The translations under genes were made by a program, and so were the position numbers. The notes beneath the pieces were generated by a model that saw only the letters and a program-made list of their open reading frames with translations, made no database searches and was not told the origin of the DNA. 64,000 nt of DNA from Daucus carota subsp. sativus (taxonomy: Eukaryota > Streptophyta > Magnoliopsida > Apiales > Apiaceae), in assembly GCF_001625215.2 (NCBI RefSeq), contig NC_030382.2, positions 49,565,364-49,629,363 on the forward strand, written 5' to 3'. Positions within the stretch are counted from its first letter, which is position 1; every line of letters begins with the position of its first letter. Below, one piece after another: positions 7,495 to 62,751 of the stretch.

Positions 7495-7719
7495 TTTATT
7501 ATTTAGATAGTTTGGTTTATGGATTGTTTCTCTTAAATATCAAGTCGCGTAGGTCTAGTTTTTATTTGGTATTGTTTGAAGACACATTTTGTGGCCTATT
7601 TCGAGCCTAGATTAATAAATTTAGTATTATTGTTTCAATATTTTTATGAATTTCATTTATTGGATTATGAATATATCTACCTTCTTGATAATTATGATCC
7701 ATATTATAGATAGTTTTTC

Positions 7720-8766
7720 ATGTTTGAAGGAATCATGAGTGCTCGACGTGGAGGTGCTAACAATCGCAACAACAGAAACAACGGAAGCGGTGGAAACAAT
7801 AACAATAACAATAATAATGAGGGTGGAAATATGTTGAACCAGCTCGCGCAAACCTTGGCAACACTCGTTGGGAATCAACAACCAGCTCAACGAAGTATTG
7901 TGTCAGAATTCAAGCGTTTGAACCCCCCAACATTTGATGGTGCAGCTGACCCTGCTATTGTGGAAAAATGGATCCAAGAGATGGAAAAGGCATTTGAATT
8001 GATGGGAAGTAATGATGGGCAAAAGGTTACTTTAGCTGTGTATCAATTACAGGGCAGTGCATATGATTGGTGGCTGATGGAGCAAAGGAGGAATGAGGAA
8101 AATGCTGATCCGATGACATGGGATAGATTCAAGACGGCATTGACAGATAAATACTTTCCAAGAACTATTCGTGTGCAAAAAGAGAGGGATTTCATTAGGC
8201 TTGAGCAGGGAGATAGGACGGTAGTAGAGTATGAAGCAGAGTTTGCGAGGCTCTCCAAATATGCTCCTACCTTAGTTGCTGACGAGATCAGTCGGGCTAG
8301 AAGATTGGAGGAAGGACTTAGAGAAAATATTAGGCATGCTGTTGCAAATTTTGAGTTAACCACGTATGAGCAAGTACTTAACAAGGCATTAGTGGTTGAA
8401 AGGGGCATGGTCGAGGCATTAAAGAAGAAAGATGAAGAAACTAAGAAGCGAAGCGAGCCTTCAGGAGGATTTAATGGTACTGGATCGTCGAAGAAGTTTA
8501 ACAATCGAGGAACGGGTGGAAATGCAAACAAAGGGAATCAAGGGGGAAAGCTTCAATGTTCAAGGTGTGGTCGTAATCACTTGGATAAGGACTGCCGATG
8601 GAACACAGGAGCATGTTTCAGTTGCGGTGAGATGGGACATAGAGTTGCTGAATGTCCAAAACGTGACCCAACCAGAGACAAAGACAATGGGAACAAAGCA
8701 ACCTTAGCGGCTTTACTTGGTCCAAATTATGGGCGAGTATACCAACACGAATCGAAAGAAAATTAA
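7720..8766 (+). CDS. Gag of the LTR element (Ty3/gypsy type)
   Basis: A 348-residue Gag. An Asn/Gly-rich start is followed by a retrotransposon-gag (capsid) domain at about residues 60-210 (FKRLNPPTFDGAADPAIVEK; LQGSAYDWW; YFPRTIRVQKERDF). A basic linker precedes two zinc knuckles near residues 280-312, CSRCGRNHLDKDC and CFSCGEMGHRVAEC, the second with classic CX2CX4HX4C spacing. The frame ends shortly before the purine tract, and no pol frame follows. The start may instead be the Met at the MSARRGG segment six codons in. Confidence 0.9.
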   Translation: MFEGIMSARRGGANNRNNRNNGSGGNNNNNNNNEGGNMLNQLAQTLATLVGNQQPAQRSIVSEFKRLNPPTFDGAADPAIVEKWIQEMEKAFELMGSNDGQKVTLAVYQLQGSAYDWWLMEQRRNEENADPMTWDRFKTALTDKYFPRTIRVQKERDFIRLEQGDRTVVEYEAEFARLSKYAPTLVADEISRARRLEEGLRENIRHAVANFELTTYEQVLNKALVVERGMVEALKKKDEETKKRSEPSGGFNGTGSSKKFNNRGTGGNANKGNQGGKLQCSRCGRNHLDKDCRWNTGACFSCGEMGHRVAECPKRDPTRDKDNGNKATLAALLGPNYGRVYQHESKEN

Positions 8767-14604: not shown

Positions 14605-14723
14605 AATATATAATAGTGAAACCATGCGTCCAATTTGCAAGTCAAGAACCCTAAAACGAGATCGATATATCAACCACCTAGCTCCAAAGATCTCTCTCGC
14701 AGAAATATATAAATTCGATTAAT

Positions 14724-15176
14724 ATGGACGGCCACATGCACGGGATGGCACCACCGGGCCAAAACGGCACCGGAAACACGCACAACTCGGTGATGCATAT
14801 GACCTTTTTTTGGGGCAAGAACGTTGATATTCTTTTTAACGATTGGCCAGGTCAGAATTCCGGTGGCATGTACGTATTAGCCTTATTTGTGGTCTTCGTT
14901 TTGGTTATGATTGTTGAGTGGCTGTCTCACTCGAATTTAATTAAACAAGGTTCGAACCATGTTGTTGCGGGATTGGTACAAACTCTAATGCATGCTATGA
15001 GGGTTGCACTGGCTTATATTGTGATGCTTGCTGTTATGTCTTTTAATGGTGGTGTGTTGATTGTAGCGGTGGCTGGACATTCTTTAGGGTTTCTGATTTT
15101 TGGTAGCAGGGTTTTTAGGAAGGCTTCTGATGGTGATGACAAAGTTTCGGATCTGCCTCCTTTGAGCACTTGTTGA
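14724..15176 (+). CDS. COPT: COPT/Ctr-type copper transporter (copy 2)
   Basis: This 150-residue intronless Ctr-family copper transporter is clearly homologous to copy 1. The shared core includes FFWGK, VEWLSHSNLIK, NHVVAGL, LMHAMRVALAY, MSFNGGV and FLIFGSRVF. The N-terminus is short and Met/His-rich (MDGHMHGMAPP). TM1 spans about 50-68, TM2 about 93-107 with M101-x3-M105, and TM3 about 109-128 with G118-x3-G122. The C-terminus ends in Cys, as in copy 1. The N-terminal Met cluster is smaller than in copy 1. It forms a tandem pair with copy 1 that was later pushed apart by the LTR insertions. Confidence 0.95.
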   Translation: MDGHMHGMAPPGQNGTGNTHNSVMHMTFFWGKNVDILFNDWPGQNSGGMYVLALFVVFVLVMIVEWLSHSNLIKQGSNHVVAGLVQTLMHAMRVALAYIVMLAVMSFNGGVLIVAVAGHSLGFLIFGSRVFRKASDGDDKVSDLPPLSTC

Positions 15177-31255: not shown

Positions 31256-31614
31256 AGAGAATAATAATGCTTTAATTTTGACAGAGTGGTATCAACTGAG
31301 ATGATTCATGTCTACTTTAACACCAAATTCAGAATTCCCCTAGTCAGGGTGACGATTGAAATGCAAGCTTAACGATAACCTTATAACACTTATAGCAGTA
31401 GTAGTGTAGATTTATACAAAATATTAAAAATACGCAATATTTCAAGATCTGGAAAAGAAAACACTTCAGTGGGAATAAAATAACTGTAGGAGAATCAGGA
31501 CAGTGTCCTCATACAAGCAGAAGAACAAAATAATGATAAAAAGATTGTACGAGAAATGTCGACATAATGAGCTCATTTCTCAGCAGAGATTCCGAATTGT
31601 ACATTTCCCTTTTC

Positions 31615-31622
31615 TATATAAA
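31615..31622 (+). promoter_or_regulatory. TATA box ahead of the long hairpin
   Basis: TATATAAA preceded by CTTTTC is a near-ideal plant TATA box. It lies about 255 bp upstream of the hairpin at 31871-32119 on the same strand, a spacing common for MIRNA primary transcripts. Use as a promoter is inferred. Confidence 0.45.
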
Positions 31623-31870
31623 CACACATGTGCTATGTTTATTCTTCATGCACCATCAAGATCAAGTTTAATTTTGATTACACAAGGTTACCTAGGAAGA
31701 AAGGCCTGGAAATGAAGATTGGAAGATCTTCGAAGCTCGATGTTGTATACATTATCTACATCTCATTTCTGTTGTATTTTGATAGGTAGTCAGCCTCATA
31801 TATATGCAACTCATGCATGTATTGCAGCTACTGATAGCTCAATGTCTAGCGTAGATCCTTCTTAATTTAT

Positions 31871-32119
31871 AAGCCTTGTTGCAGCAGCCTCTCGAGGCGT
31901 GCTCCCCGGCAAAACCTCCCATCTGTTGTGCCAAATGCTGATAGTAGTTCCCAGCACAATCACAGAAAAAATAAGTGTGCAAATCAAGGCAGTTATATAG
32001 AGGAATTTTGACTTGATATGCACACTTATTTTCTCTGTGATTGTGATGGGAGCTACTATCGACATTTTGTGCTGACATCTGGGAGATTTTGACGGAAGGC
32101 TGGTTATGCAACAAGGCTT
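31871..32119 (+). ncRNA. Long imperfect hairpin, candidate MIRNA precursor
   Basis: The left arm 31871-31990 and right arm 32010-32119 pair across a 19-nt loop. The loop-proximal 56 bp (31935-31990 against 32010-32065) match at about 49 of 56 positions. CACAATCACAGA, AAATAAGTGTGCA and GATAGTAG appear in the left arm and their reverse complements in the right. The distal halves are more diverged but still share AAGCCTTGTTGCA and CAAAA-CTCCCA. I match no conserved plant miRNA (not miR156, 171, 172, 397, 398, 399 or 408). It could be a young MIRNA, an inverted-duplication siRNA locus or a foldback MITE. No target duplication is visible at its ends. Confidence 0.55.
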
Positions 32120-32793
32120 GAGGAGGGTTTTGTCAGATGAACAAGGCTCTCAAAATACGTACATGAGTAGCATACGTGAATGAAGACCAAAATATGATTC
32201 GGTCTTCACAAAGTCTCTGTTCTTGTGAAGCTGACACAGAGATACTGTTGAAGAAAGGTGTAATAGAGTATAAATGTATAAATAATAACCTTGCACTATT
32301 TAAGAATATGTAATATTGTAAAAACATAGGTACTTATTTGGAGTACTGCATAATAAATATCAATTATAAGAATGAAGTTCTTCCCCGTTGAAATATAGCA
32401 TAAGATCCATTTGAGGCCTTTTTCTAACACCTTAAGGTTTTAAATGGACTAGTTCTTAACAAGCATCACAGATGGTCCAATCAAACAGAGTTGGTGTAAT
32501 ATCAACAAGGAAGGGAATGACAGTTATAAGTTATAACTAGTCTGGATGTTAGGTAAAACAAAATTTTGATTTGTTCCAGCTTAAATTAGAAGCAAGTTGT
32601 AAGTTGTAAAGTTGTTGCTGATCAAATGTGCTAATACGAACTTGCAAGCAAACGTGTAATCATTTTATTAAATGTAACTTTCATCATATACATACAGGCA
32701 AGCATGCATGCACACCGTGACAACACTAGTTTCATTAGGAGATTCACCACACAGGAGTGGCGTTTTATTATTGGAACCTTGATTCAGTACGAC

Positions 32794-33699
32794 TTAATTG
32801 AAGCGGCCAGGATCAGCCTCTGCAGCTGTATCCGCTGTGGCAGAAGAAACATCATGCGATGCAAATTTGTCTGCAAAATCAGGACCAACGGGTTCAGAGT
32901 TACTCATATCCATTGGTTCTCCCATGTCTGTCGATCTAGAGACAAATTCAGGAGCGATGGGACTGGACCTAACCATACGTGGTGATTCTCCCATGTTCGT
33001 GGACTTGGACACAAAGTCAGGACCAACGGGTTCAGAGTTACTCATATCCATTGGTTTGCCCATGTTTGTCGATGTAGAGACAAACTCAGGACCAACGGGT
33101 TCTGAGTTAACCATACGTGGTGATTCTCCCATGTTCGTGGACTTGGACACAAACTCAGGACCAACAGGTTCAGAGTGAGTCATATCCATTGGTTCGCCCA
33201 TGTTACTCGATGTAGAGACAAACTCAGGACCAACGGGTTCTGAGTTAACCATACGTGGTGATTCTCCCATGTTCGTGGACTTGGATACAAACTCAGGACC
33301 AACAGGTTCAGAGTGACTCATATCCATTGGTTCGCCCATGTTACTCGATGTAGAGACAAATTCAGGACCAACGGGTTCTGAGTTAATCATACGTGGTGAT
33401 TCTCTCATGTTTGTGGACTTGGACACAAACTCAGGATCAACAGGTTCAGAGTTACTCATATCCATTGGTTCTCTCATATGTGTTGATCTAGATACGGGTT
33501 TAGGAGCAATTGGACTGGACTTGACCGTATCTGATGATTCTCCCATGTTCGGGGACATAGAGATGGGACTACAGTAGTTAACCATATCCGACGATTTTCC
33601 CACCGCATCCATCACAACCGGGCGTGCATCCCCTGTAAAAGTTGTCAAGCTCCATAATGCCACTGACATCAAAACAAGAATACACATGTGAAATTCCAT
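32794..33699 (-). CDS. Secreted protein of ten 23-residue tandem repeats
   Basis: The intronless 301-residue frame begins with a clear signal peptide (MEFHMCILVLMSVALWSLTT, cleavage near residues 24-26). A short spacer leads to ten consecutive units of exactly 23 residues (51-280). Units alternate between two types, NMGEPMDMSHSEPVGPEFVS(KST) and NMGESPRMVNSEPVGPEFVS(TSS), so the DNA has a 69-bp unit and a 138-bp super-period. The core SEPVGPEFVS is nearly invariant; outer units are more diverged (SSPIAPKPVS). The C-terminal 21 residues are unique and acidic. There are no Cys pairs, dibasic sites or known domain. A TATA-like ACTATATATAC lies about 90 bp upstream. The function is unknown; a secreted structural or prohormone-like protein is possible (inference). 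Confidence 0.75.
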   Translation of the reverse strand: MEFHMCILVLMSVALWSLTTFTGDARPVVMDAVGKSSDMVNYCSPISMSPNMGESSDTVKSSPIAPKPVSRSTHMREPMDMSNSEPVDPEFVSKSTNMRESPRMINSEPVGPEFVSTSSNMGEPMDMSHSEPVGPEFVSKSTNMGESPRMVNSEPVGPEFVSTSSNMGEPMDMTHSEPVGPEFVSKSTNMGESPRMVNSEPVGPEFVSTSTNMGKPMDMSNSEPVGPDFVSKSTNMGESPRMVRSSPIAPEFVSRSTDMGEPMDMSNSEPVGPDFADKFASHDVSSATADTAAEADPGRFN

Positions 33700-33783
33700 T
33701 CTGAAAACTTAGACCTACTAGTCAATTTAAAAAGGAAGCTCAAGATCAACTGAATTGTGTTTTTTGCAGGGTCCAAACTTAAT

Positions 33784-49500: not shown

Positions 49501-52500
49501 TCTAACCTGTGCCCTCATAGGTTAAGGTGTATTAAATACACCGCAGTAGTGGTTGACAGCTCATGTGAATGCATTATCTTTATTACTTCTCATCTTTTTT
49601 AGTTTTATTACTTCTTCTCTTTTTCATCACTTCTCAACACTTTCATATTTATTTTTCTAATTTTATTTTCTTAACCAAATATTTAATTTATATGTTTTCA
49701 TAAAATATAATGATGAATAACAGATTTATTTTAATATAATAATCTAGACCCTATCCTTGCATTTTTTACAAACTAGAAAAATAACATGTATGTGTATAAA
49801 AAATATAAATTATGATTTCATCCCACAAATAATATCGATGCCCCCTGCATGCACACTAATTTTCTAATTAAAATTAGCCTTCTAACTAAAATCAATCAAC
49901 TTGATATTTAATAATAAATTTATTTTTTAGTATATTAATAATATTTAAAATATAAATGATATAATTTTAAGCATCTATATTTTTTATTCTATTTTTAGTT
50001 AGAAAATTAGTGTGCATGCAGGGGGGTCTCGTTATTATTTGTGGGATCAATTTATATTTTTTATACACATACTTGTTACTTTTCTAGTTATAAAAAATGC
50101 AAGGATTGGGTATATATTATTATATTAAAATAAATTTTTTATTCAACATGATTTTTTATGAAAATAAATAAAATTAAATGTGGTGGTTAAAAAAATAAAA
50201 AATAAAAAAATAAACATGAAAGTGTTGAAAGATGAGGAAGAGAAAAATTTTAAAAAGTGGAAAACATGAAAAGCAGTAAACGATGCATTCACATGAGCTG
50301 TCAGTCACTACTGCGGTGTATTTAATACACCTTAACCTGTGCCCTGAGGGCACAGGTTAGACAACCCGATATTTATAATGCCAGATACTTTTCAGCTGTA
50401 ACCAAACCTATTTATTGCACCAACAAAGATTGTCCTAGTTCAGAGTCTGTGTGTGTGTGTGTGTGTGTGTGTTGCCCAAGAATATAACAGATATCTTTTA
50501 ACTTGTCAGGACCAAATCATGAGATACAGGCACATATGTTGTCTCTCCTTGGATACTATGAAAACAACATTCATTCAGCGGTCGAGATTCTTGCACACGT
50601 GTATACAGGAAGTCAAATGTGTTTCATATCATTTTATTTATATGTGAAGGCTCCATCAACTTTTATGTGCATATATACAAGGACAATACTTGCAACTTGC
50701 AAGGTATACAAACCCCAACTGGAATACACATATATCTCCCTTGTTGTGTTAAATTATATTACAATTTTACTACATAACATGATGTGAATTAAACACATGT
50801 TTTTAGTGCATTCAAATGTTTTGCAAGCTATTACCACCATATATGGGGTATTTGGTTTAACTTCTTTCTGAAAATTGAGTACTTATTTTCCTGAAAATTG
50901 AGTACTTATTTTTCTAAAAATTATGTACTTATTTTTCAGAAAGAGGACAAAAACATGTACTTCAAAGAAGCAAGTACTTGATTCTCAGGAAATAAAACTT
51001 GTGAGGAACAGGCTCTATATAAAATGCAATAACTGCTCTGTGACAACTGACATGCATACCTGAATCACTTATGGACACAGCCGCATACTTCTCCTCCAAC
51101 ACCTGTTTCTCATACGCGAGCGTGGTCACCTGAGATTGCACTTCTGAGAATCGTTGTTGCTCTTGCTGCCTCAGTAGTGACACTTGCTACAAATTTTATT
51201 CAACAACGAGAGACTTACAAACAAAATCTCAGCATCAAATTAATAAATTTGCTAAACAGCACCAACCTCCAACTGAGATTTCAAATTGGTTACTTCTGTT
51301 TCCAGAGCTTGCAACTGATCATGCGAATTAGCCATTGAGCTGACAGAACCAAGTGAACCGCTTATTGCTTGCTGCTGTAACATATTCAATTCTGCTCGCA
51401 ATGCTGCTGCATCTTCCTCGGCCTATATTAAGATTACTGATAAGCAAGCAAACACAGACGAGGGTTCATAATTTAGCTTCATAACACTTGTTTACCCGAT
51501 ATTGTTCTTCTTCTGCTTCTTTTAGACGCTTCTTCATTGCGCGAAGCTGAGCGGAGAGATCCTCCTACACTTTATTAATATAGTTCCACTGGTTACATAT
51601 AGGCTTAAAATTTTTAAAAGAAACATGATTGTCAAGGTGTGTATACCTTTGCAACAACTGCGGCATCTTTTCCCATCGCAACATCCTTCAAGGCCTTTCT
51701 CAAAGATGGCACAGTTTTCTCCTGTGAATTCAGTAATTTATGCATAAAAGTTAATCTAGTTAAACTTGCACTAACATTTAATAACCATAAAACCAATTAG
51801 TTTAATTATAGCTAAACGGCCATGATTTTTCCCTGTTACAACAACTTACGATGTGGAAAAAGTACCAAGGAAACATTTTCTACAAGCTATAGTTCTCTTA
51901 AAATGTCACTAATAGAGGAAAAAGATAAAAGATCCATCAAGTAATTAGACAGAATCCTACTTAACAAACCACTGGATCAAATGGAATAGTAGGCCAACTT
52001 TAAACTTAATCTAGAAAATATAATTTTAGAGTATTTTTTACTGATAAGTCGCTGTTAAGCTTTGCTAAGTCACTAAAGTTACTGAACTTTAGTAATTCTC
52101 ATGTAAGGTTTGTGTCCAAGCCAAACTACGATGTTATATATTGAGGTTATCAGAATCAAGTCTGTACTACCATCAATTATTGAAAATGAAACGATCTCCA
52201 CAATATTTGCACATACCAATTCATGCAGATTCTGTTTCAACGTTTCATTTTCTCCCTCTTTTGCCTGAAGCTGAAACAGAAAGAACATCATAAACAATTG
52301 AACATGTCAGTCAAAAAGCAAGCGAGAAACTAATACCACTTCATATACTACAATATAATACCTTGAGAACCAAAATCTTGTTTTCGTCAGCTAATTCTGA
52401 ATTCTTATGTTGCATGTCTTTCAACTGGGATAGTAAACTAGTAACATCATTCTGCATTGACATCCAAATGAACTTCCTTAATATGTTACCGTACTTACAG

Positions 52501-53106: not shown

Positions 53107-53315
53107 GGGATTGGATTTGCAGAAAATGAAATTAACTGCAAATCCCCAATTATTTGAGGTTTTACCAAACGCTGGCGAGGGGTTAAATATAAATATAGGC
53201 TGTGATTTGTATTGAGTCTAAAGTTTTAACGCGTTGCCGATGTTTCTCTGTGAAAATTACTCGGTTTTCAGGCCACTCACGTTCACGGTGACGACCTGGC
53301 AGAGATTATTTTTTA

Positions 53316-54511
53316 TTTTCTAAAGGGAAAATAGATTTTTTTGCCACTCAACTTATAGCGTTTTTAGAAACTTACCACCCAACTAATTTATTTTTTCTTT
53401 TAGTCACTAATGTTAGGTTTGGTTTTTTTTTTAGCCACTAACTTAGGTTCGGATTTGATTACTAGTATTATCATAATTTTTTTTGTCACTAAACTTATTG
53501 CGTCTTTAGAAAATAACCACTCAACTATAATTTTTTTTATTTTACTCACTAGTGTTAGATTCAGCTTTTTTTTGTCACTGAAGTTACGTTCGGATTTAAT
53601 TATTAGCATTACATATTATGTGTAGCATTATTAAAATATAGTGGTAATCTGTAATATTTTGATAATTTGATATATGTTTGTATTTTTATATATAGTACTT
53701 TTTATGTCTCCAAGGCCGTTTACCTTGGATGATGAGAATGTTACACGCATTTTATGGCCTTTAAAAGATGTAGTTTCAAATATAACTTTATTTTTTTTCC
53801 CGAATGAAAATTCAGCGTTTGAATTTTTACACACAAAAAAAAATCACGAAAATAAGTTATGGAACTATGTTTTATAAGAGTCTTAAATACGTGCTAAGCA
53901 GTAGAAAAAACTGTAAACTGATGAGAAGGACGGCGGGAGTAATAATAATATAAAATGATGTATTATATATAGAGGACAATCATCGAAAATTAAGTTTTCC
54001 TCTCTATTTATTTATCTTGAAAATTGTAATAAGACAAAGTTATTAAAATTTTTGAAGATAAATTTAAAAGAGATCTTAGACTGAGTTAATCGATTGAAAC
54101 TTTAATTGCGAAAGGTGATGCGTCATATCACTCAATTACACTTTATCTTATGAGAGGAGGTCAATTGTTTGAAGTCATTAATTTCATATTCATGATTTAT
54201 TGAATTTTTGGAATCTAATTATGATTTTTCCTTATTTTAATTTTCATCGGCTCATTTTATATTATTATTGCTATATATAAAGATATAAACATACGACACA
54301 TCATCAAAATATTACATACTATCACTATGTATAAATGATGCTACAAAAAATTATTATAATGCTCGTAATCAAATCCGAACGTAAGTTGGTGGCTAAAAAT
54401 AAAACCAAACCTAACATTAGTGACTAAAAGCAAAAATAAATAAGTTGGGTGGTAAGTTTCTAAAAACGCTATAAGTTGAGTGGCAAAAAAATCTATTTTC
54501 CCTTTTCTAAA
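53316..54511. mobile_element. Mutator-type element upstream of the coiled-coil gene
   Basis: The element at 53325-54502 (1178 bp) is flanked by the perfect 9-bp duplication TTTTCTAAA (53316-53324, 54503-54511). Terminal inverted repeats of about 150 bp begin GGGAAAATAGATTTTTTTGC and stay about 95% identical through CACTAATGTTAGGTTTGGTT and GGTTCGGATTTGATTAC. A diverged second copy of part of the left arm follows at about 53480-53620. No transposase was recognised in the interior, so it is non-autonomous. Its near end is only about 220 bp upstream of the coiled-coil gene's start codon, within the likely promoter. Confidence 0.92.
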
Positions 54512-55132
54512 TTATTATATTTAAATATAGTAAGTAATAATTTATTTTCGAATACAAGTAGAAGGAGAACAAAAATATAAAAAGTAACTTACAAAATTCT
54601 TAATTGAAATATTATAAATTATATTTAAAAAATTGTAAAAAAAATAATTCCAACAGAATTTTGTTGTCCATGATTTTAGTAACTTATGTGATTATATTTG
54701 TTGAAATTCTGGATACCAATAGTGACATTCGGCATATTATATTAAAAAATCATTCTGTTTATAATAAATTAATTTTATAATAAAAATATTTTTATGTAAG
54801 ACATAATATTTCTAAAATATTAATATTAGTATAGCTAGCACATGATCAATATAGTCAATATCATAATATTTTTCAAATTTATATAATATTTTTATATAAA
54901 TTAATATATAATATATTTAAAAAATTTCATCCATGCATAACGTTCTACTAAAATTTGTCGCGTTAAATATAATATATACAAATACTATAAATAAAATCAT
55001 AAATGTGCGTTTAATGTTTTTTAAAATATAATTATTTCATATTCAGACTCCGGTTTAAATCAAATGAAACATATATTACTCACAAATAATCTTGAATATT
55101 TTATAAATTTTCTTACGACAAAATAATAATCA
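54512..55132. other. AT-rich spacer
   Basis: Nothing recognisable apart from low-complexity AT-rich sequence. Confidence 0.5.
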
Positions 55133-60040: not shown

Positions 60041-62751
60041 GTGTTCAGTTGGAATTTTAATGAATTATTGTTAATATACAAATTTTAGTATGATTTTATT
60101 TTTTAAAAACACAGTAGAGTTGTGATATGGATGTTTTAAGATTTAAGTACAACTAGCTTAAAACCCGTGCAATACACGGCGGTTATAATATTCATTATTT
60201 TATCGTATATATTTTTTATTTAACTAATTTTATTGAAAGTAAAATTATGATAGAATAATTTGATTAAAAAAAATTTTTATTTAACAGCTGAATAAATTCT
60301 TGATAGTTAAATCCTTCAAATAGCTATTTAAAATTAGATCAAATACATATTTTTTAATGAGAATGTTAAAATATTTTTTTTACATGTTATAATTTAAGGA
60401 GATCCATAAACCCAGATAGAAACAACCTAATAAGCATTTTAATATTTAGTTATTAATAGCTAATAATATAGTATAAAAAATATTATAAGTTAAACGGAAG
60501 CGTAAACTCAAATACTGATCCATAATACTAACCTAATTTTTAATGTTTAAATTTAATAGATAATTAAAAATATATTATAATATGTTATAAATTAGGGAGG
60601 TCCATCGAACGAATATGAAACGATTTATTAAACTTGACCGACTAACCAACTGAACCTTTCATATTTCGGTTTTAATAGTACAATAATAGATAGTATAGTA
60701 CAGATTTGTAATATTAATTACTTTTAAATTGAGATCATTAGAGTATTTAAAAATAACGCTAATATATTTTGGTTGAAAAATATCACCATTTATTTATTAA
60801 TAATTATATATGAATAATATTATATGTAGCCTGTGTAAATTGTAGAAGATCGATTTTTTTAGTTAGAAAATCTTAAAAAGATTATGTGTTTTAGTTAAAA
60901 AAAAAAGTAATTACTATATTTCTCGATATTCATTTAGAAGATTGAGTTTTTTAGTTAGAAAATATAAAAAAGATAACATATTTTAGTTTAAATGAATCTA
61001 TACTATACTATTAAAGTCGAAACATTGAAAGTTTGGTGGGTCGGTACTTGGGTCAAAATATGGGCTTATCTATATAACTATCTATTTCTTTTAATTTTGG
61101 GCCGAAATACAAACCTTTCCATATAACCAATTATTCTTTTTAACTAAAATATGTTATTTTTTTTTACTATTAAAGCCCAAACATTGAAAGTTTGGTCGGT
61201 CGGTACTTGAGCCGAAATACGGGCCTATCTATATAATTAATTATTATTTTTAACTTTGTGCTGAAATACAAATCTATATATATAACCAATTATTCTTTTT
61301 AACAAAAATATGTTATCTTTCCCGAACATTGAAAGTTTGGTCGTTCGATACTTGGGCCAAAATACGGGTCTATCTAAATAACCAATTATTTTTTTTAACT
61401 TTGGGCCGAAATACGGGCCGAAATACAGGCCTATCTATATAAACAATTATTCAAATGTTTGGGTTTTAATAGTAAAAAAAATAACATATTTTAGTTAAAA
61501 AGAATAATTGGTTATATGGAAAGGTCTGTATTTCGGCCCAAAATTAAAAGAAATAAATAGTTATATAGATAAGCCCATATTTTGACCCAAGTACTATACT
61601 ATTAAAACCGAAACATTAAAAGTTTGGTCGGTCGGTACTTGAGCCAAAATACGGGCCTTTCCATATAACCAATTATTCTTTTTAACTAAAATATGTTATT
61701 TTTTTTACTATTAAAGCCCAAACATTGAAAGTTTGGTCGGTCGGTACTTGAGCCGAAATACGGGCCTATCTATATAACTAATTATTATTTTTAACTTTGT
61801 GCCGAAATACAAATCTATATATATAACCAATTATTCTTTTTAACAAAAATATGTTATCTTTCCCAAACATTGAAAGTTTGGTCCTTCGGTACTTGGGCCA
61901 AAATACGGGTCTATCTAAATAACCAATTATTTTTTTTAACTTTGGGCCGAAATACAGGCCTATCTATATAAACAATTATTCAAATGTTTGGGCTTTAATA
62001 GTAAAAAAAAATAACATATTTTAGTTAAAAAGAATAATTGGTTATATGGAAAGGTCTGTATTTCGGCCCAAAATTAAAAGAAATAAATAGTTCTATAGAT
62101 AAGCACATATTTTGACCCAAGTACCGACCGACCAAACTTTCAATGTTTCGGCTTTAATATAAAATACGGGTCTATCTAAATAACCAATTATTTTTTTTTA
62201 CTTTGGGCCGAAATACGGGCCGAAATACAGGCCTATCTATATAAACAATTATTCAAATGTTTGGGCTTTAATAGTAAAAAAAAATAACATATTTTAGTTA
62301 AAAAGAATAATTGGTTATATGGAAAGATCTGTATTTCGGCCCAAAATTAAAAGAAATAAATAGTTCTATAGATAAGCCCATATTTTGACCCAAGTACCGA
62401 CCGATCAAATGTTTCGGCTTTAATATAGATGTGTCAAAATCTCATTAAATGTTGAGGGATTTCAAAAAGTATAAAATATCCTGAACAATCCCACAAAATC
62501 TCATTTTAATTCATAAAAAAATGTATCGAAATTTGAATATCATATTTTAATAGATCTTAAAGAATTCTAACCGAATACCATCGATTTTAAGAATAGTTTA
62601 AAATCCTAGTTAAATACAACCATATTTTATAATATAATTTAAAATTTTAATTGAATATTCCAATAATGTAATATATTTTTTAAAATGCGATCAAATATCT
62701 TTAGATTTCATGAATCAAATAAAACGTTTTAAAATTTCAAATGAATACACC
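60041..62751 (+). repeat. Dispersed TIR repeat, copy C (split by a Helitron)
   Basis: The two halves, 60041-60151 and 62430-62751, together parallel copy A (980-1479). The left half shares TTTTAATGAATT and TTTTAAGATTTAAG, and the right half shares TCAAAATCTCATT and the AAATCC/GAATACACC terminus. The break lies at an A/T step. Confidence 0.65.
60152..62429 (-). mobile_element. Helitron (non-autonomous), minus strand, with internal terminal arrays
   Basis: Read on the minus strand, this 2278-bp element starts TCTATATTAAAGCCGAAACA (62429) and ends with the hairpin CCGTGTATTGCACGG, then GTTTTAAG and CTAGT (60152). It lies between A and T with no duplication, inside dispersed repeat copy C. From 61003 to 62429 the interior is an array of the element's own 5'-end-like sequence (CGAAACATTGAAAGTTTGGT type) in alternating orientation: a unit of about 580 bp at 61007-61594 is repeated at 61595-62160 and partly at 62161-62429. 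Within each unit a 115-bp segment is inverted (for example 61044-61158 against 61480-61590). No Rep/helicase frame is present. Confidence 0.8.

Follow-up and report, generated by a model that had tools for sequence, protein, structure and literature searches.

The Arabidopsis gene ZAT1 (At2g46800) is AtMTP1. MIR856, a non-conserved Arabidopsis MIRNA, has a foldback that arose from ZAT1 by inverted duplication and may target ZAT1, and the miRNA region of its arms is more conserved than the remainder (PMC1790633). Where PMC1790633 deals with this locus, miR856 is given as validated on CHX18, and direct data for a functional role are said to be absent. MIR163 and MIR161 of Arabidopsis likewise arose by inverted duplication, and their arms are similar over long stretches to the target gene family, which for miR163 comprises the SAMT methyltransferases (PMC1790633). 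In Arabidopsis, bZIP19 and bZIP23 bind RTGTCGACAY, the zinc deficiency response element; they are F-bZIP factors that sense zinc and switch on uptake genes, and the regulon members named are ZIP and NAS genes (PMC5476651, PMC9643250). The promoters of the ZIP4 group mostly carry two such elements (PMC5476651). PMC9643250 mentions miRNA once, concerning copper (SPL7 and miRNA-dependent copper sparing, in which a transcription factor responding to metal deficiency switches on a miRNA and this miRNA reduces a metal-handling transcript), and it places no miRNA in the zinc response.

The carrot hairpin at 31871–32119 of the window, which is the whole 64,000-nucleotide stretch of DNA analysed here, resembles MIR856 in being a foldback made by inverted duplication of an MTP1-type gene with possible targeting of its donor, and it resembles MIR163 and MIR161 in the long similarity of its arms to the predicted target. 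As in the F-bZIP zinc-deficiency regulon, an exact RTGTCGACAY lies near its presumed start, although the locus is a hairpin and not a ZIP or NAS gene. The logic that we propose is that of the SPL7 circuit, with zinc in place of copper, an F-bZIP factor in place of SPL7 and, as the product that is lowered, a storage transporter rather than a metalloprotein. In the copper circuit, miR398 is the best-known copper-responsive miRNA. With about even confidence, we read the carrot locus as a small-RNA gene confined to its lineage, most probably a young MIRNA, that arose from an inverted MTP1 fragment and is preceded by a promoter containing a zinc element and a TATA box. The fuller reading, in which the F-bZIP regulon has taken over an MTP1-born microRNA gene and a shortage of zinc thereby stops vacuolar zinc storage at the post-transcriptional level, this being the second MTP1-derived birth after MIR856, is put forward more tentatively, as slightly less probable than its converse. 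The miR856 sequence is absent from 31800–32290 on either strand (at least 10 mismatches in 22), and carrot MTP1 has no site with fewer than nine mismatches for its complement, so that the two loci are apparently separate births from one gene family; this points to repeated seeding of small-RNA genes by one and the same transporter gene. Foldbacks that arise from the gene they target are a known kind, but the apparent zinc-sensing wiring would be new. The source gene, the one predicted intact target and the zinc element beside the TATA box are the additions to the preliminary description.

The foldback that had been described from the letters at 31871–32119 was borne out by folding. The fold of 31850–32140 reached −144.2 kcal/mol, compared with a mean of −77.4 kcal/mol (sd 4.8) for 200 dinucleotide shuffles, none of which was equally stable (z = −14.0), and the hairpin persisted in the fold of a model transcript spanning 31645–32400. 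Its 5′ arm (31871–31991) and 3′ arm (32009–32119), both annotated on the plus strand, contain inner arms of 59 nt each (31933–31991 and 32009–32067) that are 88% complementary, close to the earlier figures of about 56 bp at about 87% for the stem next to the loop, and the outer ends 31871–31883 and 32107–32119 are paired at 13 of 13 positions. The loop had been given as 19 nt but measured 15–17 nt; loop and closing bases occupy 31992–32008 (plus strand), the 17 nt between the inner arms. Mismatched or gapped columns between the arms numbered 24 of 63 in the outer and 11 of 62 in the inner part (Fisher p = 0.016), in agreement with the proposed greater divergence of the outer stem. As expected of a MIRNA, a stable foldback of limited length (249 nt) carries the candidate RNA in one arm, and the predicted miRNA/star duplex has few mismatches, candidate 21-mers within 31939–31966 having one unpaired base. 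An Rfam scan of 31300–32700 gave 10 matches up to E = 5, none of which reached its gathering score; the best was mir-559 (47.1 bits against a gathering score of 95). Five of the 10 were to miRNA families of animals, and the 10 were set aside as matches of shape. Membership of an Rfam family is not required of a young MIRNA. The window contains 76 inverted repeats of at least 35 nt within 2 kb, among which the hairpin ranks 25th by length, and its spacer of 17 nt is the shortest among the 25 inverted repeats listed, the next being 50 nt. Long inverted repeats, the longest of 177 nt at 97%, cluster at 61009–62414, 53315–54512 and 49516–50341 and resemble nested or foldback repeats.

The hairpin almost certainly originated from MTP1. 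When the hairpin was searched against the genome to which the window belongs (441,086,747 bases in 11 contigs), the matches were the hairpin itself and two MTP1-like places, each of which was hit by both arms in opposite orientations. The many dispersed copies with shared ends that characterize a MITE or foldback transposon, named beforehand in the preliminary description as speaking against a MIRNA, were not found in this genome search, which gave only the MTP1-like places besides the hairpin. The source gene encodes an MTP1-type zinc transporter of the host, and it is the coding part that the arms match. The 5′ arm at 31871–31984 aligned with the minus strand of MTP1 at 95 of 115 identical columns and is thus antisense to the coding sequence; the 3′ arm, the star side, is a sense copy (67 of 81 and 19 of 20 columns identical).

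Homology to MTP1 extends beyond the hairpin first reported, with limits at about 31800 (5′ side) and about 32288 (3′ side). A decayed outer antisense copy at 31800–31870 (minus strand), which is unpaired with its partner, was recognized by local alignment, 31800–31841 being identical to MTP1 at 33 of 45 columns (13 of 1000 shuffles as good), and a decayed outer sense copy occupies 32120–32288 (plus strand; 106 of 181 columns, 0 of 1000 shuffles as good). Compared with each other, the two outer arms showed no more similarity than expected by chance (392 of 1000 shuffles did as well). From these spans the locus was made by inverted duplication of about 185 nt (5′ side) and about 281 nt (3′ side) of MTP1 coding sequence, and the similarity of the arms to a coding gene reaches beyond the candidate miRNA itself, as expected of a MIRNA born by inverted duplication. 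The earlier proposal was an inverted duplication that gave rise to a young MIRNA or siRNA locus; the duplication is established by arms that match MTP1 coding sequence in opposite orientations, and the small-RNA part stays a prediction. By eye, both outer arms contain a 4-nt insertion that is absent from MTP1, which hints, weakly, at decay already under way in the fragment that was copied. Also by eye, at sites that differ between intact MTP1 and a second copy on C7, the arms side with either, suggesting that the duplication took place near or before the split of the two copies or started from a lost sister copy.

The intact MTP1-type gene lies at C2:42492650–42493933, 7 Mb from the hairpin on the same chromosome, as an open reading frame without internal stops. 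Its product has Cation_efflux and ZT_dimer domains and a His-rich stretch, the solved structures that it matches best in sequence are those of zinc transporter 8 and SLC30A3, and we take it to be the plant MTP1-type vacuolar zinc transporter. The copy at C7:21573462–21574146, which is 88% identical to the intact gene over 811 columns, was rejected as a target because it is a pseudogene: only the 3′ part of MTP1 is aligned there, the longer matched stretch has stops (one TGA and three TAA), and the homologous stretch has a 1-base deletion. A second MTP-type gene without internal stops lies at C2:49522119–49523348 (minus strand), about 42 kb to the left of the window. With 45–52% protein identity to MTP1 and no match to the core within three mismatches, it was rejected as the donor.

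Within the 5′ arm, 31939–31966 (plus strand) is a perfect complement of MTP1 mRNA over 28 of 28 nt and the predicted source of the small RNA, so that the candidate guide is complementary to the donor family; the 3′ arm has three changes there. A run of at least 28 perfect columns arose in 1,582 of 100,000 column shuffles and is thus only modestly unlikely by chance, and the longest perfect run of the 3′ arm itself, 18 columns, was about as unlikely (3,387 of 100,000). Genome-wide, the core was matched within three mismatches only by the hairpin (none; three in its own 3′ arm), MTP1 (none) and the pseudogene (none), and as it is free of mismatches in both the intact gene and the pseudogene, coding constraint may contribute to its conservation. 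Three candidate 21-mers start with U (31939–31959, 31942–31962 and 31945–31965), each with no mismatch to MTP1; the best antisense 21-mer of the 3′ arm has seven. Six core pieces of 16–18 letters, in DNA and RNA letters, were not found in the literature search. Since the arms were alike at birth, unconstrained decay would be expected to be even. Differing columns relative to MTP1 amounted to 6 of 52 in the inner and 46 of 135 in the outer part of the 5′ copy (p = 0.0018), and to 9 of 60 and 99 of 244 in the 3′ copy (p = 0.00014), with the boundary between inner and outer parts chosen when the fold was already known and the outer alignments being weak and near the limit of alignability.

Upstream, a TATA box, TATATAAA, is present at 31615–31622 on the plus strand, 256 bp before 31871, as the reported distance of about 255 bp on the same strand had indicated, and transcription would be expected to start about 25–35 bp downstream of it. 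This octamer is common in the window, with 32 occurrences on both strands compared with 16.4 expected, and on its own it is weak evidence. A zinc deficiency response element, ATGTCGACAT, an exact RTGTCGACAY (the F-bZIP bZIP19/23 site), lies at 31556–31565 without strand and ends 49 bases before the TATA box, in the proximal promoter relative to the predicted start. It was sought upstream once the target was known and was the sole regulatory motif searched besides the TATA box. The chance of an exact element is 2.1e-4 per 100 bp and 6.3e-4 per 300 bp; it is the one match in the window, where 0.10 was expected, and 10 of 100 shuffles contained one. A second element within one mismatch was not found in 31300–31870. 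Throughout the 441-Mb genome, RTGTCGACAY is not commoner than its backward control (932 compared with 1,077 sites). The composite of the zinc element followed after 30–60 bp by TATAWA gave 59 listed matches, some of them overlapping, compared with 152 for the backward control; among the matches listed are the hairpin locus and a place on C1 from which a ZIP domain starts about 2 kb downstream, and because the composite is not enriched genome-wide, it was not used as proof. MIR163 copied the promoter of its donor too (PMC1790633), whereas 31300–31870 matched nothing else in a search of the carrot genome. A promoter copied from MTP1 was rejected for this reason and because the MTP1 locus, taken together with 3.6 kb of upstream sequence, lacks an exact zinc element.

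Judged by their motifs, F-bZIP genes are present in the carrot genome: two reading frames of about 280 residues contain the F-bZIP Cys/His zinc-sensor motif and, after it, a basic region. Upstream of 17 ZIP domain starts there is an excess of exact elements, with six in 59,286 bases compared with 0.125 expected, and they occur upstream of three of the 17 starts and are absent upstream of the other 14, which indirectly suggests that the element is used in carrot. These 17 starts are those of 44 ZIP-family matches that passed the cut-off and started at profile positions 1–9; two matches below the cut-off, starting at profile positions 7 and 11, were left out. At one of three NAS genes, an exact element precedes the matched domain by 16 bases and thus possibly lies within the coding sequence. 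The exact element is absent upstream of two further MTP genes.

Considering these results, we propose the following scenario. Under zinc scarcity, F-bZIP zinc sensors would bind ATGTCGACAT at 31556 and drive transcription of the hairpin from about 31650, together with the ZIP uptake genes. The transcript would fold, and a Dicer-like enzyme may free a 21–22-nt RNA from 31939–31966, which would guide the cleavage of MTP1 mRNA within the codons for SVIVLGTTI. With MTP1 cut, less zinc would be sequestered in the vacuole while ZIP transporters raise uptake. The hairpin probably, though by no means certainly, yields small RNAs that act on MTP1, and whether it is under F-bZIP control we consider about evenly balanced. 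The main text of the carrot miRNA papers PMC10700493 and PMC6405255 contains no MTP, metal tolerance or cation efflux, and zinc appears there once, as zinc finger; a literature search of titles and abstracts returned no MTP1-targeting miRNA. An MTP1-complementary core behind an exact zinc element would represent a directly testable circuit for curbing zinc storage, in a root crop, and the hairpin offers a case in which to study how a newborn MIRNA comes by its target and a suitable promoter.

The inner stem of 59 nt, 88% paired, exceeds one miRNA duplex, and this speaks for a reading as a proto-MIRNA or inverted-repeat siRNA locus, in which several Dicer-like enzymes would act on the long near-perfect stem of a transcribed MTP1 duplication and release mixed 21-, 22- and 24-nt siRNAs, maybe repressing MTP1. 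Complex siRNA populations come from most of the previously identified foldback loci with similarity to genes, and a new foldback may begin with an siRNA-like stage (PMC1790633). The mismatches in the stem and the restriction of the perfect core to the antisense arm fit a later stage, though weakly, and we consider an siRNA locus unlikely but still deserving of weight beside a young MIRNA.

Less probable again is a functionless, decaying inverted duplicate of MTP1, untranscribed or silenced, for which the zinc element and the TATA box would be coincidental. The modest statistic of the 28-nt core, the abundance of TATATAAA in the window and the bad decay of both outer arms are consistent with such a relic, but the uneven decay of inner and outer parts is not, and neither is an exact zinc element at a place where it would make sense, with a chance of about 2e-4 per 100 bp. 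Because the element is palindromic and so directionless, it could also be real and serve an unrecognized neighbouring gene, with the hairpin transcribed or not independently of it, and a scan of open frames could miss short or spliced genes. However, the right neighbour, a 304-aa frame at 32794–33708 (minus strand), faces the element with its 3′ end, and the Pfam scan of 10 of 47 open frames gave none at the cut-off and two sub-threshold matches, which makes a neighbouring owner of the element quite improbable. A young MIRNA directed at MTP1 thus continues to be our preferred reading.

The 304-aa frame at 32794–33708 (minus strand) consists of 23-residue (69-nt) tandem repeats such as EPVGPEFVSKSTNMGES and matched no Pfam family; it recalls, as we assume, plant organ-specific proteins. 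Between this frame and the hairpin, 32387–32461 is a dispersed repeat of about 75 bp, several matches of which occur as neighbouring pairs. The genome search with 32115–32760 gave at least 52 matches, nearly all over 32387–32461, with 40 of 293 candidates scored. Elsewhere in the window, the frames at 2344–2853 and 14682–15176 (both plus strand) are similar to each other and copper-transporter-like, the second matching Pfam Ctr, and a 350-aa frame at 7714–8766 (plus strand) with a zinc-knuckle-like stretch resembles, by eye, retrotransposon gag.
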